IMG/VR virus record: IMGVR_UViG_3300006620_000109
Coordinates: 1-34,021 of that record
Origin: a virus
Strand: one strand, 5' to 3'
DNA length: 34,021 nt
A program made the translations under genes and the position numbers. The notes under the pieces are model-generated. The model saw only the letters and a program-made list of their open reading frames with translations. It did not search any database and was not told the origin of the DNA. Below, piece by piece: positions 5,165 to 22,525 of this stretch. Position 1 is the stretch's first letter, and every line of letters begins with the position of its first letter.

Positions 5165-5515
5165 TTACCTCGTTACGGACGGAGTGACTGTAATCTTACC
5201 CTCTAAAATTCTCTCAATGATCGTGTCACCATCACTATCAGCAAAAGAAAGTTCAACATCATAAACATATCGACCAGCTTTGAGAGCGTCTGTTTGAGCA
5301 TTTGTCAATGTAATAGTGCAGATACCTCGAACCGCGTCTGCTACAGTAGTGACAAAGGATGTAGTATCTGCGCTGTCACTACTATAAGTTTTTTTCAATT
5401 TTGCGGTGACTGTATGATTTGTCAAATTCTTGACTGAACCATCCGTATCAACTAGATGCAATTCAATAGATGCATCAGCACCTTGATCTATAGTAATATC
5501 TTCGTATTGGGCCAT
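5165..5515 (-). CDS. Virion protein with Ig-like/BppU-type beta domain
   Basis: A 116-residue all-beta protein, first gene behind two late promoter cores. The pattern ITIDQGADASIELHLVDTDG, then TNHTVTAKLKKTYSS, a GICTITLT turn and AGRYVYDVEL, ending in a LEGKITVTP strand, is that of the small Ig-like domain found in phage baseplate and fibre-base proteins such as the BppU N-terminal domain. That assignment rests on pattern, not on a database search. It probably sits at the baseplate-fibre junction, consistent with its position at the head of the fibre gene cluster. Confidence 0.7.
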   Translation of the reverse strand: MAQYEDITIDQGADASIELHLVDTDGSVKNLTNHTVTAKLKKTYSSDSADTTSFVTTVADAVRGICTITLTNAQTDALKAGRYVYDVELSFADSDGDTIIERILEGKITVTPSVTR

Positions 5516-5542: not shown

Positions 5543-5550
5543 TATTTATA
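5543..5550 (-). promoter_or_regulatory. T4-type late promoter core (TATAAATA)
   Basis: The minus strand reads TATAAATA, the T4 late promoter consensus recognised by the gp55 sigma factor and the sliding-clamp machinery. It ends 28 bases before the ATG at 5515 and so would drive the tail fibre cluster. It is one of two such cores 25 bases apart. Confidence 0.65.
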
Positions 5551-5572
5551 AAAATAGATATCAGATCTATTT
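5550..5572 (-). terminator. Weak A/T hairpin with T tail at operon end
   Basis: Directly at the stop codon of the last radical SAM gene, the minus strand has arms AAATAGAT and ATCTATTT around a 5-base loop, followed by two more Ts. The stem has only one G-C pair, so termination would be weak. The left arm overlaps a late promoter core, so the symmetry may partly reflect the promoter. Confidence 0.3.
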
Positions 5573-5575
5573 ATA
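5568..5575 (-). promoter_or_regulatory. Second T4-type late promoter core (TATAAATA)
   Basis: The minus strand reads TATAAATA across the stop codon of the radical SAM gene at 5571, 25 bases upstream of another copy. Both face the tail fibre genes. The A/T-rich context makes chance possible, but two perfect cores in the only sizeable gap in this part of the window argue for function. Confidence 0.5.
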
Positions 5576-6677
5576 CTAATTTGCGCTTTGGAATCTTTGA
5601 ATCTGCAGAAGAAACGCATGTTTCTGTAATACATGGCATAGGTTTTTCAAATAATTTAAAGCCTTTATCGATATAACCTAGTGGTTCGTCACTACAAGAG
5701 TAAGATCTTTTGATACTGCCGTCAGGCTCTCGAATAATAATAGACCTATAACCGGACTCACAAGTCCAACCACTAAACTTATTGAAATTAAAAGTATTGA
5801 AGCGTTCTGCTTGATCCATATAGTATTTTTTTCCACTAGCATCTTCTAACTCTACTTGCATATGTTGAGGGATGCCAGTTTTTTCATAACGTAAATCAAG
5901 CTCCACTTTGGGTCTGGGTCTTCTGATGAGTTTTTTTGTATCGGTAAAGCCTCGTTGAGGCATGCCGTTGCGTAATCGTTCAAGCATGCTATCAGTATAG
6001 CCATCAACAATAAAACTAGCAGTAGGATCAGACTGAGGTTTAAGAGTGACATTGATTCCTCTTTCATGGAAGTACAGCGCGTCCTCCCAGCATTGTTCAA
6101 ACTTATCCGGCAGCATAACTTGATTGATTGTAACTTGAATGTCTTGGCTCTGGCAATATTCTAATTTGTCGGCAAACTCCGCAACTTTCTCTTGTGTATC
6201 TACATGTTCTCTATGACACGAGGCTGTGATACTTGACCTGTGAAACCTGCTACAAATCGCAGCGTATTCTTCAAACCATTTCATCTTGCGTGAAATGTTA
6301 GAAGTCATGTGTACTGAATGATAGTTACAGTTAGGAACATCATCAGCTAAGTATTCCATAATCTCTAGATAGTCTGGATGGAAAGTTGGCTCACCACCAG
6401 AGAATGAAAAATGAAATGAATTGTAATTATTAGCACGTGATTGACGTTTGATTTCATCGATAGTCATTAGAATCAAGTCAATAGTGCGGTGATCTTTCTT
6501 GCGGCTTGAGGCGTATGGCCAGCAATATGAACATGAGTAATTACAAAATCTTCCTAGTAACCAACTGACCGTAAACAAATCACGGTGCAGCATAGTCCTT
6601 TGTCCTACGCTTACAATATTGTCAAATGGTATTTGAGTAAAGTCATATTGGCTCCACTTCAAATCAGTCGTAGACAT
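5571..6677 (-). CDS. Radical SAM protein with C-terminal twitch/SPASM-like domain
   Basis: A 368-residue protein, last gene of the radical SAM operon. The [4Fe-4S] motif CNYSCSYC gives Cys45, Cys49 and Cys52, and GGEP at 94-97 is the SAM-contacting motif. The C-terminus has GWTC (Cys306) and Cys328, Cys349 and Cys354, fitting an auxiliary iron-sulphur cluster. The segment between Cys306 and Cys328 has the strand-turn pattern of SPASM/twitch domains (IIIREPDGSIKRSYSC). The C-terminal layout is close to the gene at 17406-18539. It overlaps the upstream SGNH-like gene by 14 bases. Family members generate a 5'-deoxyadenosyl radical and often act on peptides; the substrate here is unknown. Confidence 0.9.
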   Translation of the reverse strand: MSTTDLKWSQYDFTQIPFDNIVSVGQRTMLHRDLFTVSWLLGRFCNYSCSYCWPYASSRKKDHRTIDLILMTIDEIKRQSRANNYNSFHFSFSGGEPTFHPDYLEIMEYLADDVPNCNYHSVHMTSNISRKMKWFEEYAAICSRFHRSSITASCHREHVDTQEKVAEFADKLEYCQSQDIQVTINQVMLPDKFEQCWEDALYFHERGINVTLKPQSDPTASFIVDGYTDSMLERLRNGMPQRGFTDTKKLIRRPRPKVELDLRYEKTGIPQHMQVELEDASGKKYYMDQAERFNTFNFNKFSGWTCESGYRSIIIREPDGSIKRSYSCSDEPLGYIDKGFKLFEKPMPCITETCVSSADSKIPKRKLV

Positions 6678-7542
6678 AGCTTTGTTCAGACGCAGGCCTG
6701 TCCTTATTTAATTCGCGATGATATGCATTGATGAATTCAGCAGCAATCAGCTGATGCGCCTTTTGATTAGGGTGGTTATCTTTTTCGGAAATAAACATGT
6801 GTTCGTACTTATGATAGCCTGACTCGCTGTAATCAAAGAAATTTCTCTCAATTTTATTTGTCATATTCTCAATGTACTGATAGTATTTTAGATCTTTACA
6901 GACTTCAAATAACTTCTCTCTTAGTTTTATTCTTCTGCTTGACATTACATCATATGCTTCAACTCCTTTGTGAGGATCGACGTGTGTTACTGCTTCAGCA
7001 CCCATAATAGTATTTAATGCAGTACCATGAATGATAGTAATTCCTTTCATCTTACAGTATTCGTCAAGTAAACAAATTGTTCTCAATGATTCTAACACTA
7101 CAGTTGCATATACATTCATTTCTGGATCTAAGTTGTGTACTACGGTAGTAGGATACTCAATATTCTTTTTAGATATAAAATTAAGTCTTTCAGAAATATA
7201 CTTTTCTACTGAAGCTTTTGTCAATCTAGATTCATTAGGTTCTCTGACCCAGTTACCGCTCTTTCCTAGAACAATGTTATCAAGCCCAAAAATGCTCGCT
7301 CTACAAGCTTGTGACCAGTATACAAATACAATGATTTCTCTATCCAGATTTTCATTGATTGTATCAAAAACCTGATTAGCTATAAACTGATTTCCAGCTC
7401 CTCCAGTTCCTCGATTAATCACATCCCAATCCATGAACTCGGCTGCAATAGATGACCACACGTTGATACCATTTTCGGTATAGCCCGGTTCTAAAGCATC
7501 AGTCCAACTGCAGCCTGCAGTAACAAGAAGTGGCTTAGTCAT
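6664..7542 (-). CDS. SGNH/GDSL-like hydrolase superfamily protein
   Basis: A 292-residue protein. The N-terminal GCSWT (residues 10-14) has the position of the GDS nucleophile block with Ser12. NRGTGGAGN at 43-51 fits the oxyanion Gly and Asn blocks. DNHPNQKAH near the C-terminus (Asp255, His257) fits the catalytic His block, although the Asp is two residues before the His rather than the usual three. SGNH proteins are esterases, acyltransferases or sugar O-acetyl-modifying enzymes. The start overlaps the carbamoyltransferase stop (TAATG). In this operon an acyl transfer to, or removal from, a decoration is plausible but inferred. Confidence 0.75.
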   Translation of the reverse strand: MTKPLLVTAGCSWTDALEPGYTENGINVWSSIAAEFMDWDVINRGTGGAGNQFIANQVFDTINENLDREIIVFVYWSQACRASIFGLDNIVLGKSGNWVREPNESRLTKASVEKYISERLNFISKKNIEYPTTVVHNLDPEMNVYATVVLESLRTICLLDEYCKMKGITIIHGTALNTIMGAEAVTHVDPHKGVEAYDVMSSRRIKLREKLFEVCKDLKYYQYIENMTNKIERNFFDYSESGYHKYEHMFISEKDNHPNQKAHQLIAAEFINAYHRELNKDRPASEQSYVYD

Positions 7543-8861
7543 TAAAAAACTTTTACTCCGTATGTCTCTTCAAATTTAAGAGCGTCTGTTAAATTATCAA
7601 CCATTGGCATACCTTTGATATTCAAACTCGTATTAAGAAGCATAGGACATCCAGTTTTTTCATACCATTCTTCTAGGATAGTTCGTAGTATAGAACCACA
7701 ATCTTTTTTGACGAGCTGAACACGAGACGTTCCGTCAACGTGAATAACAGATTTGTGGTCGTGTTTTGCTATTGAAACAAATTGCATGTACTCACTCACT
7801 GGTCCTTCATAATATTCATCATAAAATTCTTCTAGTATCGCGGGGGCGAAAGGCCTGAATCTTTGTCTTTTCTTAATGTCGTTAACGCTGTCTTTAATAT
7901 CAAGACGGGGGTCAGCAATAAGACTGCGATTACCAAGGGCGCGAGGACCAAACTCAGCGCGGCCGTTAGCCACACCACAGACACCATGCTCAAGAATATA
8001 TCTAACAACTTCACTAGCATTGATTTTACTATCGATATTAGTTCCAAGATACGGTCCTTTCCAATTAAGCTTCTTCTTTCTGTGTCTTGCTGCAGCACCG
8101 AGAGATGAGCCAGCATCACCAGGATTAGGCATAATCCAAATATTCTTATCTTTAATTTTCGAATTAGCGACACAGTTAAGTGCACATCCTCCCATCAATA
8201 TTAGATTCTCGTGTTTACAGTATTTATTAATATTTGAGAGAAGCTGTTTTTCGTAGAACGCTTGTATGGAAGCCGCAATATCTTCAGGTCTACCTGCCGG
8301 AAGAGAAATACCGGTATGACAGTTAGTTTGTAAAAGATAATCAAAGTCAATAGTAGGTTCTCCGTACGCGGCCAACCCCATAACAATGTATTCTTCTTCC
8401 ATAGGCTTGTAACCAAGAGCCTGTGTTACTGCTGAATATGCTAGGCCTATGCTATCCGGATAACTCAACATCCACGTTTTACGCATAAGGCCGCCACGCA
8501 TTTCAAAGCAGGATGCACTTTCAATTTCACCTATTGCATCGATACAAAGAATGTCGCAATCTTCAAATGTAGACGTAGCCCATCCAGCCCATGCATGAGT
8601 TTCATAATGACCATATTCTATATGAGGATCTATGTTACGAGCACGATCTGGTTGGCCAGCGATCTGCCTACGGAAGTCGACTCTATTTCTTTTCTCATGT
8701 CCAATAATAAGATCAGAGTCAGGCAGAAGATCTTTCTTTAGCCACTTGTCGTTCTTGACTTGCGAATGTCTTTCAACGTGGTGCGCTTCAAGAATCTCAC
8801 CGTCTTCTATAAGTGTCCATGCCGCGTCGTGACTTCCTTCTGATATACCAAGAATTTTCAT
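7542..8861 (-). CDS. Carbamoyltransferase, NodU/TobZ family
   Basis: A 439-residue protein. The family transfers a carbamoyl group from carbamoyl phosphate via carbamoyl-AMP to a hydroxyl, usually of a sugar. Visible motifs are MKILGISEGSHDAAW at the start, GHYETHAWAG at 84-93 (metal-binding His85 and His89), MGGCALNC at 223-230, EFGPRALGNRSLIADPR at 303-319 and LLNTSLNIKGMPMVDN at 408-423, covering the Kae1-like and C-terminal domains. It is clearly shorter than typical members of about 550 residues. The ATG at 8861 overlaps the upstream TGA (ATGA) and matches the family start; an in-frame ATG at 8888 would add nine residues. Probably adds carbamoyl to a phage-made sugar or similar group. 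Confidence 0.88.
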   Translation of the reverse strand: MKILGISEGSHDAAWTLIEDGEILEAHHVERHSQVKNDKWLKKDLLPDSDLIIGHEKRNRVDFRRQIAGQPDRARNIDPHIEYGHYETHAWAGWATSTFEDCDILCIDAIGEIESASCFEMRGGLMRKTWMLSYPDSIGLAYSAVTQALGYKPMEEEYIVMGLAAYGEPTIDFDYLLQTNCHTGISLPAGRPEDIAASIQAFYEKQLLSNINKYCKHENLILMGGCALNCVANSKIKDKNIWIMPNPGDAGSSLGAAARHRKKKLNWKGPYLGTNIDSKINASEVVRYILEHGVCGVANGRAEFGPRALGNRSLIADPRLDIKDSVNDIKKRQRFRPFAPAILEEFYDEYYEGPVSEYMQFVSIAKHDHKSVIHVDGTSRVQLVKKDCGSILRTILEEWYEKTGCPMLLNTSLNIKGMPMVDNLTDALKFEETYGVKVF

Positions 8862-9925
8862 TTCCACTGTGCCATAAATGGATCCCATCCCTTATTACAT
8901 TTGTTGCCACATGTCTTAAGTCTGCCTTGCGCAACTCCGTGGATGTTCCAACTATTTTCTATACTTTTAAAGAATTTACCGTTTACAATCTCTTCTAATG
9001 GTGTTATATTAATATTGATAGATTCAAACCCACCGTTATCCATGATCATCTGGTATTCTTGGCTGTCCTTCATTGGCCTCCACCACTTATAAACTTGGCC
9101 AGCTAACCAACAACACGGAAACACTAAGCCTTCAGCCGAAACATATATTTCTTTTTTCTTTACACATTTAGGTTGTATCTCTGCTACGTCAATAAAGTTA
9201 TCAAGAGTTCCAAACTTATCTACGATCTTGCCGTAATCACTATCAATAGCTTTGTTTCTATACTTAGGATCTTGAGGCTGTGCGAGTAGCTGTGTAGCGT
9301 TACCTTTTCTATCGACAGCCTGATGTTGATCTCTCTTCTTTAGGTCTGCCGAGTATACATACCGTCCAGATTTTTTTATGATAAATTCGTCGACACCTAG
9401 GATCTTAGAGAACATGCGAGCCTGCTCTACTTGATGTTCGTTATAGTTGAATACAATAAACGTCCACTTAGCTCTACCACCAGCATCACAGAAAGCTGCC
9501 ATGTTTTCTTCAACGTTCTGCCATCGCACGCCTTGGCGGTATAAGTGATTAGTGTCTTGCAATCCGTCAACAGAAAAGTTAACAAAGGTTACAATCTTTG
9601 CGAGCTTCTCCCACCACTCTACTTTTCTGGCTCCACCATTTGTAATTACCTGTAGATTTATCTTAGAGTTGCACTCTCGAATATATTCACATATCTCTAA
9701 CATGTCGGGTGCTAAGATAGGATCACCGTGATTACCACACATGTAGAAAGTATGTAAACTTTTTAAGAAATCTGGAGAGAAAGCTTTTACAAACTGATCA
9801 TATGACATTGACTCGTCTTTAAGATACTGATTAACCTCACCTCCATTCTTATTCCTGTCGCACATAGGACATGATGCTTGACAAAGCTGAGTAGGTTCAA
9901 AGTGTATCTGTCCAATGCTATACAT
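8858..9925 (-). CDS. Radical SAM/SPASM protein, tandem copy 1
   Basis: A 355-residue protein with core first and auxiliary domain last. CQASCPMC gives Cys15, Cys19 and Cys22. The usual GGEP is replaced by GNHGDP. The SPASM-like part has Cys254, the pair Cys271-Cys272 in VFPCCW, and Cys339 and Cys343 (CGNKC). It is a clear tandem paralogue of the next upstream gene: both have EPTQLCQAxCPMCDR, NGGAR, the SVDGLxDTNHxYRxGVxW segment and CVKKKEIYV. A TTG at 9952 extends the frame, but the ATG at 9925 aligns with the start of the paralogue and is preferred. The Shine-Dalgarno is weak and overlap with the upstream gene is 8 bases. Substrate unknown; peptide modification is the commonest role of SPASM enzymes. 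Confidence 0.88.
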   Translation of the reverse strand: MYSIGQIHFEPTQLCQASCPMCDRNKNGGEVNQYLKDESMSYDQFVKAFSPDFLKSLHTFYMCGNHGDPILAPDMLEICEYIRECNSKINLQVITNGGARKVEWWEKLAKIVTFVNFSVDGLQDTNHLYRQGVRWQNVEENMAAFCDAGGRAKWTFIVFNYNEHQVEQARMFSKILGVDEFIIKKSGRYVYSADLKKRDQHQAVDRKGNATQLLAQPQDPKYRNKAIDSDYGKIVDKFGTLDNFIDVAEIQPKCVKKKEIYVSAEGLVFPCCWLAGQVYKWWRPMKDSQEYQMIMDNGGFESININITPLEEIVNGKFFKSIENSWNIHGVAQGRLKTCGNKCNKGWDPFMAQWK

Positions 9926-10946
9926 GTTTAGTCGCCAGTGTTTGTAACTCAAAATGATTTTGTATAGTGTTACATTTTTTTGTACATATCATAGGATTAT
10001 CGTCAGTGTTCCATCTTTCTTCATATGTTACAAACCATTCCATAGCTTTCTTTATTCCAAGCTTTTTTGCGTTTATTTCGTATGAACCTTGTTGCGATAT
10101 TGCGTCTAAAATTTCTTCGAGGTGTGTATCTTGTGATGATATTACTGCAGTATTAGACCAGCAACATGGGTAAACATCACCTGTTGCAGTTACATATATT
10201 TCTTTTTTCTTTACGCAGTTAGGCACAATAATAGATTTTTGCAAATCTTTGTAAGATACTCTGTTCTCTATAATTTCGCTTTTGTATTTTTCTGTAGATG
10301 GAGTTTTTAATACATTAGACTTTCTTCCATTTCTATCATAAGTCTGCCTAACAGGCTTGTTATCTTCGCCGTATCTGTTTGTAGACTTTAAAGCAAACTC
10401 TTTGAAGCCTAAGTCTTTCGCTAGCTTTTCGGCTTCTTCAACTTGATGTTCATTGTGTTCGAAAACTAAGTACGCCCATTTGGCGGTACCACCAGCTGCA
10501 ATGAAAGCTTTCACATTTCTCATAACGTTTTTCCATTGCACGCCTTTTCTATAAATATGGTTTGTATCTTCTAAACCGTCTATTGAAAATACTACATTAG
10601 AAGTTACTTTAGCTAGCTTCGTCCAGAATTCTGTTGTACGAGCTCCGCCATTAGTAACAACATCTAACACTATATCATCGTTATGTTTTCTAAAATACTC
10701 TAGTATTTCAATACAATCAGGAGCTAACATTGGATCACCAACGTTACCACACATATACATCTTACGTAATTGCGAAATAAACTCAGGCGAAAACATATCC
10801 TTTATGTCACTTAGAGAAAGAGACGCGCTAGTTAAAATAGGGTTAACCTTACCATCCATTGTTGTACGATCGCACATAGGACACAAGGCCTGACATAGTT
10901 GCGTTGGCTCGAGGTGAACAACTCTGATATCATTTATTCCATACAT
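9918..10946 (-). CDS. Radical SAM/SPASM protein, tandem copy 2
   Basis: A 342-residue protein, paralogue of the gene just downstream. CQALCPMC gives Cys18, Cys22 and Cys25, and GNVGDP replaces GGEP. The auxiliary-cluster cysteines are Cys244, Cys261-Cys262 (YPCCW), Cys321 and Cys325. The chosen ATG at 10946 gives MYGINDIRVVHLEP, matching the paralogue MYSIGQIHFEP; an ATG at 11006 would add 20 residues and overlap the upstream gene by 77 bases. Overlap with the QueC-like gene is 17 bases. Retention of two diverged copies side by side suggests two related substrates or a heteromeric enzyme. Confidence 0.87.
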   Translation of the reverse strand: MYGINDIRVVHLEPTQLCQALCPMCDRTTMDGKVNPILTSASLSLSDIKDMFSPEFISQLRKMYMCGNVGDPMLAPDCIEILEYFRKHNDDIVLDVVTNGGARTTEFWTKLAKVTSNVVFSIDGLEDTNHIYRKGVQWKNVMRNVKAFIAAGGTAKWAYLVFEHNEHQVEEAEKLAKDLGFKEFALKSTNRYGEDNKPVRQTYDRNGRKSNVLKTPSTEKYKSEIIENRVSYKDLQKSIIVPNCVKKKEIYVTATGDVYPCCWSNTAVISSQDTHLEEILDAISQQGSYEINAKKLGIKKAMEWFVTYEERWNTDDNPMICTKKCNTIQNHFELQTLATKHV

Positions 10947-11619
10947 TAAACGCCCAATCTCTTTCCATACACCACCAGCATTCACCACACGTTTCAGTAA
11001 ATCCATGAGTCATGTGATCCCAACCTTCGCAAGATCGAGTTATTTGTAGTAGATCCATAAGCTCATACTTCTCGTATAACTCAGCTATTGTACCTTTGTG
11101 GCTGTGAATAAAAGGACAACAATGTATCAACTTGCGCCTTTCATCATCATCAACTAATTGCTTGGTCCAGCGACCTTCCCAGTCTCTATGCTTTTCTCTA
11201 CACTCCCAGACCTTTTCTCCAAACACAGCTGAAGATCCCCAGTATTTCTGGCCAATTTCTTCGGGCGGATTTGCTGTAACACCATTAAAGACTTGAGATG
11301 TCTCACCTATTTCAGATACTACTTCATCAATCAAGCTTTCTTGATAGTCAACGTAATCTTCTTTTGGATTCTCACAAAGCCAAGCTCGCTGAGGCATGAA
11401 GTTGCCATAACAGTTTTCTTGTATGTAATCGTATACCTGCTGAGCATGATAGCTCTGCCAATTTCTTACACCGTGAATAATAGTAATTGGCCAAACAGTA
11501 AGAGGCTTGTTTTGTTTCTTCCATTCGTTACAAATCATCCATAGAAGAATAGCGCTATCAGCTCCGCCAGACAAGCGAATGATTACGTTTTCAGTAATAA
11601 CTGGAATCTTAATAGACAT
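10930..11619 (-). CDS. QueC-like PP-loop ATPase
   Basis: A 229-residue protein of the adenine nucleotide alpha-hydrolase fold. RLSGGADSAIL (SGGADS at 17-22) is the PP-loop that binds ATP. The C-terminus has Cys197, Cys211, Cys214 and Cys217 in the arrangement of the QueC zinc site (CGECWWC). QueC makes 7-cyano-7-deazaguanine (preQ0) from 7-carboxy-7-deazaguanine. No QueD, QueE or QueF partner is visible in the window, so the substrate may differ; related PP-loop enzymes make nitriles, amides or thio groups by adenylating a carboxylate or carbonyl. The ATG at 11619 has an AGGA site and overlaps the upstream gene by 11 bases; an in-frame TTG at 11625 is rejected. Confidence 0.78.
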   Translation of the reverse strand: MSIKIPVITENVIIRLSGGADSAILLWMICNEWKKQNKPLTVWPITIIHGVRNWQSYHAQQVYDYIQENCYGNFMPQRAWLCENPKEDYVDYQESLIDEVVSEIGETSQVFNGVTANPPEEIGQKYWGSSAVFGEKVWECREKHRDWEGRWTKQLVDDDERRKLIHCCPFIHSHKGTIAELYEKYELMDLLQITRSCEGWDHMTHGFTETCGECWWCMERDWAFNVWNK

Positions 11620-12790
11620 AATCAAAAATCCTAGGAGCTAGTTCAGATGCATCACGATTATATAGTTGATCTTGGAGCATTACAATATCTTTAAACGTTT
11701 CTTCTGGTAAAGTACGTTTACCTTTTAACCTCATTTCAAATTCTCTAGTAAAATCATTTTTACTAAGACCTTTGAGGATATTTATTTTAGTTTCTTCTGC
11801 CAAGTTAACTACGTCTAAGCCTTCTGGCCAGTGTACAAAGGTTGGTCTATACTTTACTTCTATACCATAGTGTCTTTCTAAATCTTGCTTTAAGTGAAAT
11901 AGATCATGCGCAATCTCATTCATATAGAACGCGTGATATGCAGTAGTAGTACAGACGAGTAGAAGTTTTTGAATCTTGTCCGTGCGACTCAACATCTCAT
12001 GGATATTTTCAATGACGGTATTATAGTCACCACCTTGTCTAAAGTAGTTAAATAGATTTCCGGTACCATCCATACTAACAGTGATGTCAGCTCTCTTGAA
12101 GTGTTCCCACAACTTAACAATATCGTAATTTTTGAATCGAGTAAGAGACATATTCGTATTGTAGACTAGAGTTACTTTCGAGGTGTCAATGTTTGGATCT
12201 TCGATCATTCTTTCGAGGAATCTGTACATTTCAACATGAAAGAAAGGTTCGCCACCAGAAAATTCTATACGCTCTACTGTGGGTAGTACGTTAATGAATA
12301 GATCATCAATAATTTCTGGCGTAGGAATGTCAATGTGTTTGTCTCTTTCAATCACATGATCAAACTTATGCCTGTACCAAAGAAGTTGACCAACTTCAGG
12401 ATTTTGCTTTCCTACTTTGATAAAGTTAGAATTGCTTGGTACACTACAATGCCGACAAGAATAATTACAGCCTCTATTTAGTTTGAGCTGTAGATCTCGA
12501 ACAGTCGCTGTTGTAGTACTATAGTCTGGTTCCGATACTAAAACATCTAGTGATCTTTGTCGATATGAATGAATGCCATTTTCTTCTTGTATCTTACAGT
12601 CAACACACTCGTCCGGCCATTCATCATTCATCAATTGTTCACGCATGCGTTTCCATTCAGATGAGTTAACATCTGGAATATCAGGCACTTTACCAAACTC
12701 ATGGCCATGTCTTAGCTTAAATCGAAAACATGGAGCATAACCACCGGGTTTGAAATCTAAATGCGTCCAAGCAAACTTACACTTTTTCAT
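11609..12790 (-). CDS. Radical SAM protein with N-terminal twitch domain
   Basis: A 393-residue protein. The cysteine-rich auxiliary domain precedes the core: Cys4, Cys21, Cys62 and Cys65 (CVDC, followed by EENGIHSYR). A single Cys21 followed by Phe replaces the CC pair of its relatives. The core has CNYSCRHC (Cys108, Cys112, Cys115) and FSGGEPF at 178-183. The N-terminal arrangement CxxxWxxLxxxPxG then CFR is that of a SPASM/twitch domain moved to the front. It overlaps the genes on both sides by 11-14 bases, so translation is coupled. It likely modifies a peptide or peptide-linked substrate; not proven. Confidence 0.88.
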   Translation of the reverse strand: MKKCKFAWTHLDFKPGGYAPCFRFKLRHGHEFGKVPDIPDVNSSEWKRMREQLMNDEWPDECVDCKIQEENGIHSYRQRSLDVLVSEPDYSTTTATVRDLQLKLNRGCNYSCRHCSVPSNSNFIKVGKQNPEVGQLLWYRHKFDHVIERDKHIDIPTPEIIDDLFINVLPTVERIEFSGGEPFFHVEMYRFLERMIEDPNIDTSKVTLVYNTNMSLTRFKNYDIVKLWEHFKRADITVSMDGTGNLFNYFRQGGDYNTVIENIHEMLSRTDKIQKLLLVCTTTAYHAFYMNEIAHDLFHLKQDLERHYGIEVKYRPTFVHWPEGLDVVNLAEETKINILKGLSKNDFTREFEMRLKGKRTLPEETFKDIVMLQDQLYNRDASELAPRIFDYVY

Positions 12791-13934
12791 CTATCATATC
12801 ACAAAACTCACAATCACGAGTTGGTGGCCTTTCATGTGCATCAATATATTTTTTTGTTTTCATTCGCAAAATCTCTGATAATTCGGGGTTTACTTTTTCG
12901 AGAGATGTGGTATAATAAGTATCTAAGATACGAAGGGAGTGGAGTACTCGATGCCAAGAAACATGATCATACTTTTTTTGTTTGATAATATTTCTAAATT
13001 TTTGATTAGTTACTCGTTCTAAAATCCATTCTTCGTACCAATCAGGAGCATGCATGAAAGACAAATATCCGTCTGTATCATATGACCACGACTGAGTATC
13101 ACAATACGGTTTGTAATATTCTAACGATTCGTCAATAAAATTTGCGTTGATCACCGTAAATGTTTGATGTATTGTCATTCTTCTATTATGAAGTAGATCA
13201 CCGTATTCTAAAAAATTAATAAAACTTTTCTGAAAATTAGATTCAACTCTTTGATATTCTGATAACTCGGGCAATCCGTCAAAACTGCCAGACAATCTAA
13301 TATGTTTAAACTGATTAAGAATTTCTGCAGTCTCTTCATTCATTTTTATAGAACAGTTTGTTACTAGTTCTAACTCTACTTCAGAAATATTTGTACGCAT
13401 ATCTAGAAAGTATAAAAAATCTAGAAAATTAGGAGAAAGAAATGGCTCGCCTCCTAATAGCTTTACGCTTCTTAGACTATTCCAATTAATCTTTAATTGC
13501 TTCAGAGATTCATATCTAGATTTTTGTACTTTTTCTGGGTTAAGGCCTAGATCTATATCTCGCTTTAGAAGTTTAGATGAGAACATACTAGAACACATTC
13601 TGCATTGATAATTACACGTGTTATCTAAGCTTAATTCAAGATGTTCGAGATTTCTAAAATCAGGTGTAAGTTTCGAATATCTGTCTTCCATAGCATGGAA
13701 CTCGTTTGCAGCAGTTCTCATGCTCGGTATACCACTATCATCTTCTTGGTAGCACTTATTACAACGAGAATCTTTTTTTCCTGCTAGCATATCTTTACGT
13801 AACTGACGAAACGCGTTTTCATAATCAGAAATTTCTACAGCTTCTTTTGTAGAAAATCTACAGCACGGTCTAATTGTATTATTCATCGTGACTGTAAATG
13901 ATTGCCACGGAAGCATGCAGACTACATCTTTCAA
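12777..13934 (-). CDS. Radical SAM protein with N-terminal twitch domain
   Basis: A 385-residue protein (start assumed). N-terminal cluster cysteines are Cys6, Cys24-Cys25 (PCCRF), Cys58 and Cys61 (CNKC, then EDDSGIPSMR). The core motif CNYQCRMC gives Cys107, Cys111 and Cys114, and LLGGEPFL holds GGEP at 161-164. The start is uncertain: a GTG at 13964 begins the open frame, but a TTG at 13934 overlaps the upstream TGA (TTGA), has an AGGG site 8 bases before it, and gives a start (KDVVCMLPW) that matches the CPLPW starts of its paralogues. Starting at the internal ATG (13916) would remove Cys6. Confidence 0.85.
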   Translation of the reverse strand: MKDVVCMLPWQSFTVTMNNTIRPCCRFSTKEAVEISDYENAFRQLRKDMLAGKKDSRCNKCYQEDDSGIPSMRTAANEFHAMEDRYSKLTPDFRNLEHLELSLDNTCNYQCRMCSSMFSSKLLKRDIDLGLNPEKVQKSRYESLKQLKINWNSLRSVKLLGGEPFLSPNFLDFLYFLDMRTNISEVELELVTNCSIKMNEETAEILNQFKHIRLSGSFDGLPELSEYQRVESNFQKSFINFLEYGDLLHNRRMTIHQTFTVINANFIDESLEYYKPYCDTQSWSYDTDGYLSFMHAPDWYEEWILERVTNQKFRNIIKQKKYDHVSWHRVLHSLRILDTYYTTSLEKVNPELSEILRMKTKKYIDAHERPPTRDCEFCDMIDEKV

Positions 13935-14461
13935 ACTAAGAACCCTAAAAAGAAAGTTTTCCACGCGTTGTCAAATCGACTTGCAGTATGCAATTGCGTA
14001 ACGTCAAAGATTAACATCTTGCTTCTATCCCAATTAAAGACTAAATCTTCTTCGAGTTCACTGCATTTAAAATCTGCCTTTTCTTTCGTGTCAACGTATT
14101 CACACCTGTCCTCACCACAATACATAAGACGTCGAGTATCCCAGTGTTTTAACATAATTGTTTGAGGATCTTGGTTTTCCCACTCTAAAGGAATGATACA
14201 ACCTAATCCACCATTGTTACCTTCGATAATATCATTGTGGTAGAGGATATTATAAGATGAATTCATATAGTCAAACTTCCACATTCCTTCTTCTGGAACT
14301 GTTGGTTTAATCCAATTATTCATCCACTCATCTGCAGTCCACGTAAAACGATGATAGAAATTTGATTCTTTACCAAGAGAAACCTTTTCACCTAGCGCAG
14401 TGTCGATAATCAAATCAATCTTATCTTCATCGAGTGGATTGTCTATTACTCTACTTTTCAT
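13931..14461 (-). CDS. Fe(II)/2-oxoglutarate-dependent oxygenase-like protein
   Basis: A 176-residue protein with the pattern of the jelly-roll oxygenases. YHND supplies the H-x-D iron triad members His75 and Asp77, TQLHTA supplies the distal His158, and Lys168 or Arg162 in the last strand could hold 2-oxoglutarate. Family members hydroxylate or otherwise oxidise proteins and small molecules. The ATG at 14461 has a GAGG site and overlaps the upstream gene by 11 bases; an in-frame TTG at 14470 is less likely. It lies between the PLP-type enzyme and a radical SAM gene, implying a step in the same pathway. The fold call rests on motif spacing only. Confidence 0.68.
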   Translation of the reverse strand: MKSRVIDNPLDEDKIDLIIDTALGEKVSLGKESNFYHRFTWTADEWMNNWIKPTVPEEGMWKFDYMNSSYNILYHNDIIEGNNGGLGCIIPLEWENQDPQTIMLKHWDTRRLMYCGEDRCEYVDTKEKADFKCSELEEDLVFNWDRSKMLIFDVTQLHTASRFDNAWKTFFLGFLV

Positions 14462-15365
14462 TGAGCTCAACCTCGTTTAAACCTTTGTTAGTGCCACGTT
14501 CATCATACACTCCATCAATAAGCATTCTTAAAGGTGTGCGAATTCCATATTCTTCTCCTTCTGGTCCAAGCGCGACATGAATTGCGTCAAGTTCAGTTAG
14601 TCCAAAATCTTTACATACTTTTGAATATAGATGGCCATATCTTTTCCATAAGTGATCAGTACCGAACTCTTTCATAAATTCTACACCTAACCACATGTCT
14701 GAAACGTTTGCATATCTAAAATCATTCATTACAGATATTGGACCTACTTGTTTATTGCGACTATATCGAATACCAATACGCTGTGAACCTAATCCAAGAG
14801 ACTTGGAAAGAGATACAGCCACAGATTGAATAGCCGGATGCCTTACATCGAATTCAAAGTTACGGCACATACCAAACCAAGCACCGTCAATATGAACAGG
14901 CACTAGCCATTCATAGCAGTGATCTAATATATCATTGAAATCTTTTATAGTGCTCGTAGTCATGCATGAAGGATACGAAACAACAAATGTATTACCCGGC
15001 AAGATATTATACTTACCGACAGTTTCTTGTACTGACCAATCGGTGAGTCTTCGGTGATACTTATACTCACCTTCAATAACTACAATCTCATTCTTGTTAT
15101 GATAGTGCAGCTCATCAAGAAACTGTGTAGTACCTAGGATAGCATCTCTATATTGAAAATCTTCTAAACCAATATACCTACACATCTCATGAGAATTAAT
15201 CCATTCATCTATTTGTTCTAGAAAATACTCTGTGTACGCGTGCGGGTCGCGCGGATAGTCTTTCATAGACAATGATTCACGAAATTTAGTATAGTCGCTC
15301 AAGTACATAGGCCTTTGCCGCTTCGTACTTAAGTGTTCAAGTGTCAAGTCTTCATATCTAATCAT
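14451..15365 (-). CDS. PLP-dependent fold-type I aminotransferase-like enzyme
   Basis: A 304-residue protein. VPVHIDGAWFG provides Asp160, which would pair with the pyridine nitrogen of PLP. SLSKSLGLGSQRIG provides Lys188 for the Schiff base and Arg196 for phosphate or substrate. GTTQFLDEL at 78-86 matches the cofactor-binding loop near the N-terminus. It is about 100 residues shorter than ordinary class I aminotransferases; the small C-terminal domain looks reduced. It could transfer an amino group to a keto-sugar or keto acid, or decarboxylate or eliminate. It overlaps the upstream radical SAM gene by 8 bases and ends within the oxygenase start. Confidence 0.75.
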   Translation of the reverse strand: MIRYEDLTLEHLSTKRQRPMYLSDYTKFRESLSMKDYPRDPHAYTEYFLEQIDEWINSHEMCRYIGLEDFQYRDAILGTTQFLDELHYHNKNEIVVIEGEYKYHRRLTDWSVQETVGKYNILPGNTFVVSYPSCMTTSTIKDFNDILDHCYEWLVPVHIDGAWFGMCRNFEFDVRHPAIQSVAVSLSKSLGLGSQRIGIRYSRNKQVGPISVMNDFRYANVSDMWLGVEFMKEFGTDHLWKRYGHLYSKVCKDFGLTELDAIHVALGPEGEEYGIRTPLRMLIDGVYDERGTNKGLNEVELNEK

Positions 15366-17434: not shown

Positions 17435-18539
17435 ATCCTGGTGCTGCTTTCGGTACGCGAAGATCTAAATAATCACCGCACCAAGTTCTATCACAAACTG
17501 TTGGCTCGGTAGGCAATTCAAAGCCTTCATCAAGTTCATATATGTTTCCAATTGGTCCGCCGCGGTGGCAGCTACCAATGAATACTCTTCCGTCAGGATC
17601 GACTTTTAGATGCTGAACACCTGCCCAGCACGTCCATCCCTTATAGTTATTGTCTTTGTTAAGCGTCATAGTATTATAGTGATCTACTGTTACCGATCCA
17701 TCCTCCCAATATCTTTCAATGTTATTTCTTTTTTTAGCATCAGTCTTATGTTTATACCAACTATTAATTCTATCAAATTCTTCTTGAGTGTAGAAAGAAT
17801 TTCTTCCTATTAATTGTTGAAACACTTCTGAATCATAGCCTTTGCTTCTTCTCTCCGCTTTCTTCTTAATCTTATCAGCAGTAGATACTGAACCGGTGTT
17901 ATCACCTAGAATTAACTCATTCTGGCCCGGCCGCAGTTCGTTTGTAACACCGTGTTGTGGTCGAATATTGCGAAACTCGATCTTCTCAATATCTTCTTCA
18001 ACTAATCTTTCCCACATTTTTTCGATTAGATCTAGCTGGCCAGGGTATACCATAAATCGAGCGATAAATGTTTTCTTCTTATCGTGAGTATCATTCCACT
18101 CTCTACGCCACTTTTCGATAGCGATAATCTTTTCAAGAGTTTCTTCAATCTTATTATGAATATACTCAAAGTGTATAGAGAAGACAATATTATCTAGAAA
18201 TTGAAAGTTCTTAATGATTTTATCTGCTGGAATAGATCCATTTGTTACTACAGATATTTCGTCAGGCATAGATCTTCCGATATATTCTACAATATCATAG
18301 AACCAAGGGATAATCATAGGCTCACCTCCACACAATGACCATTGCACGTTATACCAATACTTGTCTTCAATGGCGTCAACGAGTAGCTTCATTTTCTCAA
18401 GAGGAGGATTAGGGCTATGAAAATCGTGCAAGTAGTCGACACAGTACGAGCAGTCGTAGTTACACCGCTTAGTCATATACCAGTCTACACTAATAGCTTT
18501 TGTTCTATTATGAATGTATCTTTGTGCTACTTGTTTCAT
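17406..18539 (-). CDS. Radical SAM protein with C-terminal twitch/SPASM-like domain
   Basis: A 377-residue protein. CNYDCSYC gives Cys26, Cys30 and Cys33, and CGGEP holds GGEP at 71-74. The C-terminal part has GWTC (Cys304), Cys324, Cys349 and Cys354, with LKVDPDGRVFIGSC between the first two. The same GWTC-22-C-C spacing occurs in the gene at 5571-6677, so these two are probably a sub-pair separated in the operon. The ATG has a GAGAGA site and overlaps the upstream gene by 32 bases. The charged segment at about 225-260 is specific to this member. Confidence 0.88.
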   Translation of the reverse strand: MKQVAQRYIHNRTKAISVDWYMTKRCNYDCSYCVDYLHDFHSPNPPLEKMKLLVDAIEDKYWYNVQWSLCGGEPMIIPWFYDIVEYIGRSMPDEISVVTNGSIPADKIIKNFQFLDNIVFSIHFEYIHNKIEETLEKIIAIEKWRREWNDTHDKKKTFIARFMVYPGQLDLIEKMWERLVEEDIEKIEFRNIRPQHGVTNELRPGQNELILGDNTGSVSTADKIKKKAERRSKGYDSEVFQQLIGRNSFYTQEEFDRINSWYKHKTDAKKRNNIERYWEDGSVTVDHYNTMTLNKDNNYKGWTCWAGVQHLKVDPDGRVFIGSCHRGGPIGNIYELDEGFELPTEPTVCDRTWCGDYLDLRVPKAAPGYEHLLKDYV

Positions 18540-19722
18540 ATATCTCTCTAATGTGAGGAAAAAGCTTAAATGAATCTTGATTTCTTATTTTATCGAGTGC
18601 ATCATTATATTCGATAAATCCTTTGTATTCTTTTTCATGAGGAGTACGAGTTGATCTCAAATTGCTAATTAAATTATCCAGTTTTTCATGGTGTCTATCA
18701 TGCAGAATAGGCTTGTAACTTTCTAGTTCTTCAGCAGCATGTAAACGAGTATCTAGGTCTATCATTTCTAGACTAAACCTATCTGGTGAATGAACCGTAT
18801 AGAAAAACATATCACAATCATCTTGAAATTCTAAAAACCAGTCTAGAAATTTCCACATAGATAGACATTGGTATACTGTAATAGCTGACAGTATACTTTT
18901 TCTCCATTGCGAATGTAATTTCAATGATCTAAAATTCTGATCTACTACGCTCCATTTGCTTGGCCAGCGAAGGAATTCATTCTCTTCTCCATACGCATCG
19001 ATAGAAGCTCCAAACCAACCTGACTTAAATTGGTTAAGCAGACTAACCACATACTCATCGACTTTATTAATATTACTGTGTACATGAACATGCATTCGAG
19101 AAGCATGGCCAGTATCAACCAATTGCTGCAGAGTTGTTATAACATTGTCGTCAATAAGTGGCTCACCACCGTGTAACTCAATCGCATCTATCTGATTAAC
19201 ATGCTTCCAAAACTCGTTTAGAAAGTTACCTCCGTCTCCTAGCTGTTTCTTTGAACATCCGATTAATTGTTTCTTATCATACTCAGGAATAAAGTCGTAG
19301 TGCTTAGTGTGTTCTTTCTCGATAAGAGTTGAGTTTTTCGGTGTACAGATTCTACACGCAGAATTACAAACCGAAGATAATCTAAACTCCCACCAGGCCG
19401 GCATCTCTTCGACGTATCCATCTTCACGAATTCGATGCTTATACTTCTCATAATATCGATCAAGGTATCCTTGTCTTTTAGACCCGCCACCAGATTCTTC
19501 TGTGCGTTTACATCCTTCGCACTGAGGTATTCTTTCACCACGAATCTTACGTCTTCTAAAATCTCGCATCCAATCACAATTCCAAAAGTCTTCTACACTA
19601 TCGGTGTTGAGATTAAATCCTTCAATCGGATAAGCTCCTTCGGCTTGACTGCAAGTTTTAAGAGTTCCGTTAGGTCTACAATTCAATACCATAAATGGAA
19701 TTATACAAAAATTCTCATTCAT
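18508..19722 (-). CDS. Radical SAM protein with N-terminal twitch domain
   Basis: A 404-residue protein. The front domain has Cys6 (NFCIIPF), Cys24 followed by Ser (TCSQ, not the CC pair), and Cys68 and Cys71 (CEGC, then EESGGGSKRQG). The core CNSACRIC gives Cys119, Cys123 and Cys126, and ELHGGEPLI holds GGEP at 185-188. The SIDAYG segment follows at mid-core. The start overlaps the upstream TGA (ATGA). Loss of one cysteine of the CC pair, also seen in the gene at 11609-12790, suggests a different auxiliary cluster ligand set. Confidence 0.87.
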   Translation of the reverse strand: MNENFCIIPFMVLNCRPNGTLKTCSQAEGAYPIEGFNLNTDSVEDFWNCDWMRDFRRRKIRGERIPQCEGCKRTEESGGGSKRQGYLDRYYEKYKHRIREDGYVEEMPAWWEFRLSSVCNSACRICTPKNSTLIEKEHTKHYDFIPEYDKKQLIGCSKKQLGDGGNFLNEFWKHVNQIDAIELHGGEPLIDDNVITTLQQLVDTGHASRMHVHVHSNINKVDEYVVSLLNQFKSGWFGASIDAYGEENEFLRWPSKWSVVDQNFRSLKLHSQWRKSILSAITVYQCLSMWKFLDWFLEFQDDCDMFFYTVHSPDRFSLEMIDLDTRLHAAEELESYKPILHDRHHEKLDNLISNLRSTRTPHEKEYKGFIEYNDALDKIRNQDSFKLFPHIREIYETSSTKIHS

Positions 19723-21044
19723 AGTAAATGCTTAAATTCTGGCACAACAGATTTAATATCTTGATTTCGTAATTCGTCAAGCTTAGTTGTTTCAAACACA
19801 AATCTGTCCCAATGGTCTTTATAGTAATCTTCTGATAGCATGAAGTCAGTAACTCCATCACATATTTTTACAAAACTATTTTTTACTTTAGTGCTATATC
19901 CACTTGCCAAGATCCAGTCAATATACTCTTGGTATTTTTCTGCCACCTCATCTTTAAATATTGCTGGTAATACTTTGACATTGAAGTGCTTCGGTGAATG
20001 GCACATGTGGTGAGTAACAAGAGGCCTACGGCCAGTGAGAGGATTAAATCTTTTTAGGCCAGATTCTTCTAGTTTCCATCTCATAAACTCCGGTAAGTGT
20101 AAAACATTATACGGTGTAACAGTAAAAGTAAACCAGCACTTTAGATTAATGTCAAGATTCTGGTCAAGCCTTTGCATATTACGATATAGAAGCTTCCACT
20201 TGATAGGAGCTCTTTGGTATTCTAAAACATCTCCATAGCCGTCAATTGAAACACCAACTCGTATTTGCTTAAAGCTTTCCCATAGCTTGAGAATACGATC
20301 AGTTACATTTGTCAGATTGGTATTATATTCTATTTCAATATCTTTTGCTCTACCAGATTGTACTAGCCTTTCTAAAGATTCAATGTGCTCCTCGATGATA
20401 AGAGGTTCACCACCAACAATGTACATTCTCTTTACGTTGTTAGTATATTTCTCAAAGTTATTCCAATAGTAATTAGAATTCTTAAACCAGTCATATTGAT
20501 TAGTAGACCATTTACCTTTAGCATTCTTTGTCAAAGTAATTAAGTCATGTGTATCTTTGTATGTAGTCTTATCGTGCATATTAACAAAGTCATCATACCA
20601 AGTATGGCTATCGGTCGGTCCACACATTCTACACTTCAAGTTGCAGAAGTTTCCATACCGAATATCAAAGTAATCAATATCGAAATCGTCAGGATTAATA
20701 GTACCATCTTCTTCTGTATTAGATAAGGCACCATCCATGATATGACCCCAATCGTCATTCTCATATCCTCTTCGCGATTGTACACCATTTAGTTCTTCTT
20801 GTCTACAACGCTCACATTCCGAATGCCACTCTCCTTTCATCATAGAAGTTCTTACTTCTTTGAGAAGCTCAGCATTACGTGCTTCGTTTAGATCATCTCT
20901 ACCTGCATTATATGGTGTACCATCTTCTTTTCGAAGAATACCACGATTTTTTGTATAGCTGTTTGTGTTACAGCATACTCTAAGATCTCCGTTATTACGA
21001 AGATTAATAGAGTTCCAAGGTAATGGACAAAACGTCTTACTCAT
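19719..21044 (-). CDS. Radical SAM protein with N-terminal twitch domain
   Basis: A 441-residue protein. The front domain has Cys6 (TFCPLPWNS), Cys24-Cys25 (RVCCNT), and Cys77 and Cys80 (CERC, then EELNGVQSRR). It carries an insert between the two cysteine groups (GILRKEDGTPYNAG) shared with the first gene of the operon. The core has CNLKCRMC (Cys134, Cys138, Cys141), a longer linker than in its relatives, and VGGEPLI with GGEP at 211-214, then SIDGYG. ATGA overlaps join it to both neighbours, giving strict translational coupling. Confidence 0.9.
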   Translation of the reverse strand: MSKTFCPLPWNSINLRNNGDLRVCCNTNSYTKNRGILRKEDGTPYNAGRDDLNEARNAELLKEVRTSMMKGEWHSECERCRQEELNGVQSRRGYENDDWGHIMDGALSNTEEDGTINPDDFDIDYFDIRYGNFCNLKCRMCGPTDSHTWYDDFVNMHDKTTYKDTHDLITLTKNAKGKWSTNQYDWFKNSNYYWNNFEKYTNNVKRMYIVGGEPLIIEEHIESLERLVQSGRAKDIEIEYNTNLTNVTDRILKLWESFKQIRVGVSIDGYGDVLEYQRAPIKWKLLYRNMQRLDQNLDINLKCWFTFTVTPYNVLHLPEFMRWKLEESGLKRFNPLTGRRPLVTHHMCHSPKHFNVKVLPAIFKDEVAEKYQEYIDWILASGYSTKVKNSFVKICDGVTDFMLSEDYYKDHWDRFVFETTKLDELRNQDIKSVVPEFKHLL

Positions 21045-22483
21045 TTATACCACTCTAGCCAATCATAGTCTGGAAATGTTTCATTAAAATCTATAAATCT
21101 TTTATCTGCTACCGTGTAACACCACTCGGCTGTCTCTGGTAATCTTGTTGACCAATCGTCTGCATCCATAAAGTTAAGCAAACCTTGCATACGTGGTATA
21201 CCATACTCTGATTGTCTCCAAGTATCGTATGGCACTTGGCGTTCAGTTACGCCAGTACAATCTTTCCAATTCTTTTCAAGCCATGGAAATAACTCGTCTT
21301 CGCACTTCTGCCTAACGTCTTTCTTAAACCATTCAGGCAAGACTTTTACATTAAGCTGCGGTGGCCAATAGGCTAAATGACATGAAAATAAGCCACCGCC
21401 AGACGGCCACTTGTTTAGAAGTTTGAATCCTTCTTGCACTTTCCATTTAATAAATTCAGGCAAGTAATATATATTGAGTGCAATACAAGTCCATGCCGTA
21501 GTAAGCTCAAGGTTACCGTGTGGATAATTATCCAGCTTTTTAATTTGTTCTACAACTTCAGGCCAAGGAGACGGATAACGAATAAAATGATTTCGTTGTT
21601 CAATGTCATCTATAGAAAAATGGAAGATTACATTGCGGAATTCTTTCCACAAATCAAATAAGTCTTCTCTCCATTCTAATCCGTTTGAGTTATAGCGCAG
21701 TTCAATATCTTTCGCCAATCCATCCTCAATAATTTTTTCAAGAAGAGTATAGTGCTCATCCATAATTAGAGATTCACCACCGGCCCAGTATAATTGCCGA
21801 AGATGCGGAAGCTGTGAGTACAGCTCATCCCAAAAGGTTGGACTTTTCTTATGCCAGTTATAAGATCCACCCGTCCAAGCTAGCTTGCCAGTCTCTTTTT
21901 CCCACTCCATAGTCTGCTTGAGTTTAGGATTAACTAGATGTGGATGGATTTGTTTGTGTTCTTTTACCCAACCGCTCGAATCATGTGGGCTACACATAAC
22001 ACAAGCCAACTGACATTTAGAGCCAAGGCGCAAATCAATATATCGAATCCTAGGGTCGACTGTCCCGTCTTCTTGAGTACCACGAATGATTTCATCAATT
22101 CCTCCTGCATCTTGTATCCATTTACGAGTTTCCCACTGCCTCTTTGATCGATGGCCAGCTTCTTCTTCCTTGAAACATTTAATACACGATGCAGGTTTTT
22201 CTCCAGCTAACATTTGTCGCCGAACACCTTTCATGTATTCGTTGTTCCAGCTTTCAAGCAGTCCAGTCGTAGCAAGGTTTGCTGGTTTACCATCATCTCT
22301 TTTTAAGATTCCGGCATCAGACTTAGTCTTGTTAGTAGATTCAGCATTAACAGCAACACCGCTAGCATTTGCTGTACAACACACTCGCATATGACCATTA
22401 GGCCTAGTGGATAAATGCATCCAGGGAAGCGCGCAAAATGTTTCTGTAGGAAATTGTTCGTCTAGTTCTTTTTTAGTGTACAT
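21041..22483 (-). CDS. Radical SAM protein with N-terminal twitch domain, first gene of operon
   Basis: A 480-residue protein, the largest of the set. The front domain has Cys17 (TFCALPWMH), Cys35-Cys36 (RVCCTA), and Cys100 and Cys103 (CIKC, then EEEAGHRSKRQ). The core CQLACVMC gives Cys157, Cys161 and Cys164; GGES at 235-238 stands for GGEP, and SIDDIE replaces the usual SxDG. The insert GILKRDDGKPAN links it to the next gene. It starts 35 bases downstream of a TATAAATA late promoter core with a GGA ribosome site, and is the first cistron of the 15-gene unit. Confidence 0.9.
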   Translation of the reverse strand: MYTKKELDEQFPTETFCALPWMHLSTRPNGHMRVCCTANASGVAVNAESTNKTKSDAGILKRDDGKPANLATTGLLESWNNEYMKGVRRQMLAGEKPASCIKCFKEEEAGHRSKRQWETRKWIQDAGGIDEIIRGTQEDGTVDPRIRYIDLRLGSKCQLACVMCSPHDSSGWVKEHKQIHPHLVNPKLKQTMEWEKETGKLAWTGGSYNWHKKSPTFWDELYSQLPHLRQLYWAGGESLIMDEHYTLLEKIIEDGLAKDIELRYNSNGLEWREDLFDLWKEFRNVIFHFSIDDIEQRNHFIRYPSPWPEVVEQIKKLDNYPHGNLELTTAWTCIALNIYYLPEFIKWKVQEGFKLLNKWPSGGGLFSCHLAYWPPQLNVKVLPEWFKKDVRQKCEDELFPWLEKNWKDCTGVTERQVPYDTWRQSEYGIPRMQGLLNFMDADDWSTRLPETAEWCYTVADKRFIDFNETFPDYDWLEWYK

Positions 22484-22517: not shown

Positions 22518-22525
22518 TATTTATA
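22518..22525 (-). promoter_or_regulatory. T4-type late promoter core for the radical SAM operon
   Basis: The minus strand reads TATAAATA followed by ACTGTA, 35 bases before the ATG at 22483. This is an exact match to the T4 late consensus and places the whole radical SAM operon in the late, virion-assembly stage. It lies in the 45-base divergent gap. Confidence 0.7.

Follow-up and report, generated by a model that had tools for sequence, protein, structure and literature searches.

A sixteen-gene operon with eleven radical SAM proteins in an environmental T4-related virus, and its counterparts in predatory bacteria

Operon layout and predicted late expression

The window analysed here comprises bases 1-34021 of the 53,873-bp environmental virus record IMGVR_UViG_3300006620_000109 and bears, on the minus strand at 5571-22483, an operon of sixteen genes that encode eleven radical S-adenosylmethionine (SAM) proteins and five other enzymes. 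The virus is a marine T4-like phage, and its operon is one version of a widespread but so far unstudied pathway that is shared with predatory bacteria. An earlier reading made from the letters alone (the sequence-only reading) had counted fifteen genes overlapping almost without a gap; we counted sixteen, and the overlap had no exception, leaving 0 non-coding bases in 16,913 bp. The operon genes and the late promoters at both ends are as follows (aa, amino acids; PLP, pyridoxal phosphate).

22518..22525, minus strand: T4-type late promoter TATAAATA, 35 bp before rS1
21041..22483, minus strand: rS1, first gene; N-terminal-twitch radical SAM protein, 480 aa, NF033640 383.7 bits; conserved core gene
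19719..21044, minus strand: rS2, N-terminal-twitch radical SAM protein, 441 aa, NF033640 369.7 bits
18508..19722, minus strand: rS3, N-terminal-twitch radical SAM protein, 404 aa, NF033640 287.5 bits
17406..18539, minus strand: rC1, radical SAM protein with C-terminal auxiliary cysteines, 377 aa, Pfam Radical_SAM 43.3 bits
16277..17434, minus strand: rS4, N-terminal-twitch radical SAM protein, 385 aa, NF033640 321.8 bits
15358..16293, minus strand: rC2, radical SAM/SPASM protein, 311 aa, Pfam Radical_SAM 39.1 and SPASM 22.7 bits
14451..15365, minus strand: PLP-dependent aminotransferase-like enzyme, 304 aa, Asp160 and Lys188 invariant in the homolog alignment
13931..14470, minus strand: possible 2-oxoglutarate/Fe(II) oxygenase-like protein (OG), 179 aa, called from HxD and a distal H only
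12777..13964, minus strand: rS5, N-terminal-twitch radical SAM protein, 395 aa, NF033640 197.8 bits
11609..12790, minus strand: rS6, N-terminal-twitch radical SAM protein, 393 aa, NF033640 218.4 bits
10930..11625, minus strand: PP-loop ATP-pyrophosphatase, QueC-like (PPl), 231 aa, Pfam QueC 23.3 bits (cut-off 22)
9918..11006, minus strand: rC3, radical SAM protein with C-terminal auxiliary cysteines, 362 aa, paralog of rC4
8858..9952, minus strand: rC4, radical SAM protein with C-terminal auxiliary cysteines, 364 aa; core gene
7542..8888, minus strand: NodU/NolO-type carbamoyltransferase (CarbT), 448 aa, Carbam_trans_C 2e-44, Carbam_trans_N 2e-35, phrog_1601
6664..7542, minus strand: SGNH/GDSL-like hydrolase or acyltransferase, 292 aa, called through a homolog
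5571..6677, minus strand: rC5, last gene; C-terminal-twitch radical SAM protein, 368 aa, Pfam Radical_SAM 53.4 bits
5568-5575 and 5543-5550, minus strand: two late promoters TATAAATA, which serve the tail-fibre genes and mark the end of the operon

The CX3CX2C motif was present in all eleven radical SAM proteins, against 0.09 proteins expected in shuffles. In the Pfam and NCBIfam profile searches that the sequence-only reading had called for, each of them passed Radical_SAM or NF033640: ten exceeded the curated Pfam Radical_SAM (PF04055) cut-off as whole proteins, and the eleventh, rS3 (18508-19722), passed NF033640 and Pfam SPASM. NF033640 is an NCBIfam model of the N-terminal-twitch (N-twitch) subfamily, with a whole-protein cut-off of 170 bits and without an assigned function; it was passed by rS1-rS6 (198-384 bits), and the N-terminal cysteines are conserved in the alignment of N-twitch proteins. 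The other five, rC1-rC5, fail this model and carry their extra cysteines at the C-terminal end, so the six N-terminal and five C-terminal auxiliary cysteine domains counted earlier were confirmed. Pairwise identity among the paralogs was only 12-34%, except for rC3 and rC4 (44%), for which reason we regard the paralogs as old and reject a recent tandem duplication. The alignment of the six N-twitch paralogs was too diverse to be used as a scanning profile.

None of the known radical SAM families for heme, MoaA or the maturation of ribosomally synthesised and post-translationally modified peptides (RiPPs) reached its NCBIfam cut-off among the operon proteins (for instance, viperin 57 vs 180 bits and MoaA 30 vs 284 bits), and the weak matches to PapB, StsB, NirJ and others were far under the cut-offs. 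Sequence searches against solved structures with rS1 and rC5 gave no match. The predicted model of rC5 (pLDDT, the predicted local distance difference test score, 62.5) fitted best to CteB, EpeE and SkfB, weakly (E 2e-3 or worse); naming its reaction from this fold was rejected, the model being too weak. In a tblastn search of 50,697 phage records, rC1, rS2 and rC5 had no match and rS1 only three weak ones. To our knowledge, the chemistry of N-twitch radical SAM proteins has not been characterised.

As for the accessory enzymes, a relative of the PLP-like protein (L179) exceeds the Aminotran_1_2 cut-off, and the protein itself found no match when used as a query against viral contigs. The possible oxygenase-like protein had no Pfam or PHROG match. 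The PP-loop protein also matches phrog_1550 (QueC-like), and its homologs adjoin radical SAM genes in 75 loci. A homolog of the SGNH-like protein (L342:6033-6827) matches Lipase_GDSL_2 at 4e-5, under that family's cut-off; relatives carry from 1 to 5 copies of this gene.

The motif TATAAATA has been described as a late promoter in T4 and cyanophages (PMC2984593). It occurs ten times on the 53.9-kb contig, and eight of these copies fall between genes, at 6-53 bp from a downstream start on their own strand, with intergenic DNA making up only 2.5% of the contig (P ~1e-11); no sense-strand copy was found inside the operon. The motif also precedes the orthologous first gene in the related records L002 and L003, an upstream copy is present in L009, and in L004 and L005 rS1 overlaps by 11-35 nt the last gene of a co-directional late structural run. 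Judged from these sequence features, late expression of the operon is well supported. Since the exact motif was found upstream of only 6 of 107 rS1 homologs, the late promoter is not universal and we confine this claim to the window's contig and its nearest relatives.

Tail-fibre-type genes come after the last gene of the operon according to PHROG matches, as had been proposed. The T4 late core that had been placed before the first gene does not adjoin it directly, because a divergent block (22529-25400, plus strand) stands between and sets the operon apart from the baseplate genes; the late assignment itself is supported by the promoter upstream of rS1. The block and the two boundary genes of the locus are the following.

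22529-23233, plus strand: GT8-like protein, divergent block gene 1, with a GT8 (glycosyltransferase family 8) fold match
23154-23606, plus strand: unknown protein, divergent block gene 2
23606-24238, plus strand: methyltransferase-like unknown, divergent block gene 3, 210 aa, no Pfam match
24229-24765, plus strand: glycosyltransferase-like protein, divergent block gene 4, phrog_1962 (glycosyltransferase)
24735-25400, plus strand: glycosyltransferase-like protein, divergent block gene 5
25321..25863, minus strand: m180, unknown protein closing the run of baseplate genes at its 3' end; left boundary of the locus, weakly phrog_4746
5165..5515, minus strand: fib116, right boundary of the locus, tail-fibre-assembly type, phrog_3304 (L-shaped tail fibre assembly) 2e-19

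The GT8-like protein is predicted to fold like LgtC and glycogenin (Foldseek probability 1.00, best E 4e-7) and its DLD motif is invariant in the alignment. We assign the block to the same module as the operon because in L004-L006 it lies on the same strand, after rC5. The module thus holds eleven radical SAM proteins together with carbamoyltransferase, PP-loop, PLP-type and GT8-fold enzymes. No likely transmembrane segment was predicted in any operon or divergent-block protein, so the chemistry should be cytoplasmic, with sugar nucleotides, precursors linked to lipid or virion proteins as substrates. Homologs of the methyltransferase-like protein (23606-24238) adjoin radical SAM genes in 90 loci.

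At 2079-3407 of the window there is a fibre-like protein with repeated motifs of the DSAYI/DSDYI type. Runs of undetermined bases interrupt two structural genes in L001, near 1-40 and 3030-3060 (contig ~34.0 and ~37.0 kb), and are assembly gaps.

Conservation and variation of the locus among viral relatives

Fifty virus records were fetched through rS1 or rC3 homologs, and they contained 1-24 radical SAM genes each. An rS1 ortholog was present in 46 of the 50, exactly one strong match to rC5 in 44, and both genes together in 41, around a variable interior. Because this sample had been chosen by radical SAM genes, a second one, free of that bias, was drawn with a gp4-like head-completion protein (21 records, many of them fragments), which replaced a VrlC-like query that had retrieved near-identical contigs only. 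At least one radical SAM gene was found in 13 of these 21 records, with a maximum of 7. The gp4-like protein was nearest to records of Kyanoviridae and Pseudoalteromonas phages (50-54% identity).

Distinct contigs kept the order rS2-(rC1)-rS4-PLP-OG-rS5-rS6-PPl-rC3-rC4-CarbT-SGNH(1-5)-rC5-fib116-fibre, which tolerates internal gene gains and losses among relatives. The most conserved gene of the operon was rC5, with 83-92% identity in the nearest relatives sharing it, where rC4 was 71-75% identical; in the nearest relatives, fib116 showed 58-75% and other neighbouring genes of the virion region 40-54%. Identity of rS2 in relatives was 67-76%, and no close ortholog of rS3 was found in those examined. 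The comparison of related genomes suggested by the sequence-only reading gave a conserved gene order, as well as sister phages in which the locus is empty or filled by other cassettes of sugar type. Together with the zero-gap arrangement and the late promoter, this order supports, as had been claimed, a dedicated and co-expressed late biosynthetic pathway.

Across relatives, the m180-fib116 interval held from 0 to 11 radical SAM and glycosyltransferase-like genes. The cassette was absent from L347, which also lacked m180, and L340 had two small genes in its place; in L341 it consisted of one radical SAM, a glycosyltransferase-like and a methyltransferase-like gene. L342 and L343 carried a DegT/StrS sugar aminotransferase, a carbamoyltransferase, glycosyltransferase-like genes and two to three radical SAM genes, and L344 three radical SAM genes with a carbamoyltransferase and glycosyltransferase-like genes. 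The DegT/StrS matches in the sister-phage cassettes were strong (E 1e-79 to 1e-81), and a GDSL gene was also present. Despite a wholly different cassette, fib116 of L342-L344 was 81-84% identical to that of the window, whereas it was 58-68% identical in most phages sharing the operon; cassette and fibre are thus uncoupled in this comparison of fib116, which is evidence against enzymes dedicated to that protein. A ready control is provided by those sister phages whose flanks are similar but whose locus is empty. Domains of UDP-sugar dehydrogenases and nucleotidyltransferases were among the neighbours of phage radical SAM loci.

Three fused open reading frames, L024:15312-19550 (1412 aa), L025:11397-13832 (811 aa) and L032:1204-4449 (1081 aa), join radical SAM parts, or glycosyltransferase-like and methyltransferase-like parts, and may give clues to partners in the pathway.

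Bacterial counterparts and known systems

In bacterial genomes, N-twitch homologs were concentrated in the Bdellovibrionota: NF033640 had 8-33 matches per genome in seven genomes of this phylum, and its cut-off was passed by none of 14 control genomes. Identity to the phage proteins was 57-62% for rC5, 50-51% for rS1, 38-43% for rC4 and 36-45% for rS2. On these chromosomes rC5, which was single-copy in 17 of 291 Bdellovibrionota genomes (one copy being split over two contigs), is grouped with rS1, rC4 or rS2 (44%), and homologs of rC5, rS1, rC4, rS2, the PLP-like and PP-loop proteins and SDR-like (short-chain dehydrogenase/reductase-like) proteins are clustered with glycosyltransferase-like neighbours. 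For example, a 328-kb Halobacteriovoraceae contig (L231) carries rC5, rS1, rC4 and rS2 along with two GT2 proteins and homologs of the PLP and PP-loop enzymes; within 21 kb, no virion genes were seen. The neighbours of bacterial N-twitch genes belonged to the GT2, WbsX, TylF, RmlD, DegT, GDP-mannose dehydratase and ABC-2 transporter families. No virion genes were seen in the Bdellovibrionota clusters, and their genes often form divergent pairs, unlike the single operon of the phage. Most of the bacterial loci are contigs of metagenome-assembled genomes, of which single cases could be mis-binned, yet the pattern recurs across many assemblies.

In the rC5 tree, the bacterial copies formed one clade, together with one phage, nested in the phage diversity (support 0.86); as the outgroup was distant, we draw no direction of transfer from this tree. 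One Bdellovibrionia chromosome contig (L204 and L207, G076:C1:745513-774880) has about 14 N-twitch radical SAM genes in 30 kb, together with Asp/Asn-hydroxylase and 2-oxoglutarate-oxygenase-like genes.

That many radical SAM genes may lie in one T4-related phage is already known, since 11 and 12 such proteins were reported in 2010 for the Campylobacter phages CP220 and CPt10, which are T4-related (PMC2853527). We reproduced the count of 11 for CP220, the same number as in the window's operon, and environmental relatives reach 24, so the uniqueness implied by the sequence-only reading was rejected. CP220 (L352, 66-80 kb) has a cluster of five radical SAM genes that begins immediately behind structural genes of gp5/PAAR type and is followed by two nucleotide-sugar transferases; an amidinotransferase is there too. 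The layout is that of the locus described here, built from enzymes that are not N-twitch proteins. It differs in that its proteins do not reach the N-twitch cut-off (best 31 bits vs 170), in having no match to rC1, rS2 or rC5, and in the distribution of its radical SAM genes over several genome positions.

A pelagimyophage host-recognition cluster beside VrlC and tail fibres has been described, with GT8-type glycosyltransferases and radical SAM cassettes (PMC7029224), the latter being touched on in passing only. The locus studied here is of this type, being a variable island between baseplate-region and tail-fibre genes with GT8-type glycosyltransferases and radical SAM cassettes. The cultured pelagimyophage HTVC008M has a single radical SAM protein, and this is not of the N-twitch type. 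In the literature searched we found no description of the rS1/rC5 core or of its bacterial counterparts; an operon dominated by N-twitch proteins, this core, a single locus that can be empty or filled in alternative ways, and a counterpart among predatory bacteria look new in that literature. In a survey of auxiliary genes from marine viruses, phage radical SAM proteins are given the label ahbD (heme synthase), with their function called speculative (PMC9301287); the proteins so labelled may belong to the rS1/rC5 system.

Candidate products of the pathway

From gene context, we give about an even chance to a late-expressed pathway in which the operon enzymes build an unusual glycan and add decorations to it. 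We favour this reading because glycosyltransferases, sugar aminotransferases, carbamoyltransferases and SGNH proteins recur around the core in both phages and bacteria. The radical SAM, PLP and possible 2-oxoglutarate enzymes would alter the sugar skeleton or a sugar nucleotide, the carbamoyltransferase and SGNH proteins would decorate sugar hydroxyls, and the GT8-like enzymes would transfer the modified sugar; rS1 and rC5 could carry out the steps that stay constant, and the interior genes the tailoring that varies. Transfer may be to a host-surface or lipid-linked glycan, with the virion a less likely acceptor. Late timing would suit a role in protecting the dying cell against rival phages, or in releasing progeny from debris. 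Several points weigh against a glycan product: classical nucleotide-sugar enzymes are absent from the window, as are a flippase and a membrane glycosyltransferase; the best fits of the rC5 model, weak as they are, are peptide-modifying SPASM enzymes; and the aspartyl/asparaginyl hydroxylases among the neighbours could mean protein substrates.

The sequence-only reading had proposed virion modification, in which the enzymes would alter tail-fibre or structural proteins before assembly and so change receptor binding. The late promoter, the position beside baseplate and tail-fibre genes, the overlap of rS1 with the end of the late structural run in L004 and L005, the cytoplasmic appearance of all operon proteins and the likeness of the rC5 model to peptide-modifying enzymes are in its favour. 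Nevertheless, we consider it unlikely, given that the core enzymes lie on bacterial chromosomes by glycosyltransferases and without virion genes, that fib116 stays 81-84% identical when the cassette is entirely different and is less similar (58-68%) in most operon sharers, and that L347 has no cassette at all. The glycan pathway is thus favoured over virion modification. Unlikely as well is a RiPP-like pathway, in which radical SAM/SPASM enzymes would act on a peptide or produce a diffusible small molecule derived from amino acids. Many SPASM and twitch radical SAM enzymes act on RiPPs, and the weak PapB, StsB and NirJ profile matches and weak CteB, EpeE and SkfB structural matches point the same way; yet every operon radical SAM protein stayed under the cut-offs of the RiPP maturase families, and the phage and bacterial neighbours are of glycan type. 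We rejected the idea that the operon holds a precursor-peptide gene of its own, because there is no non-coding space for it; no profile search for precursors or peptidases was made.

DNA-modification genes normally act early. Hypermodification of DNA or nucleotides, comparable to that of deazaguanine or hypermodified-thymine phages, is suggested by a QueC-like PP-loop protein (which matches QueC and phrog_1550) beside radical SAM enzymes and by the many radical SAM genes of CP220-type phages, but is very improbable in view of the late promoter, the tail locus and the chromosomal copies that adjoin glycosyltransferases. Moreover, the operon contains no QueE, FolE or nucleotide-hydroxymethylase partner (the contig lacks the replication region), its only deazaguanine-type member is the marginal QueC-like protein, and none of its radical SAM proteins reached the QueE cut-off. 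The locus could also be a hypervariable dumping ground, a recombination hotspot filled with unrelated cargo enzymes that have no common product, as its content in sister phages (from nothing to 11 radical SAM genes) and the shuffling of interior genes might indicate. This is improbable, because gene order was kept in distinct contigs with small gains and losses, rS1 and rC5 co-occurred in 41 of the 50 records, and rC5 was so well conserved (83-92%) among operon sharers.

Extending the glycan reading, we tentatively propose, as a possibility on the less probable side, that marine T4-like phages and predatory Bdellovibrionota share a previously undescribed system, marked by the invariant pair rS1 and rC5, whose product would be a surface polymer tailored by radical chemistry and in which swapped radical SAM enzymes would give a lineage-specific chemical 'serotype'. 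If this were true, dozens of combinatorially swapped radical SAM enzymes would stand behind the 'serotype' of each lineage. The module offers a defined and testable gene set for modification at the phage-host surface. Radical SAM genes are rare in cultured phages, yet common in environmental T4-like contigs. Vibrio phage K566 (L350:11878-18614) has six radical SAM matches, two of them over the N-twitch cut-off, and might serve as a laboratory model.

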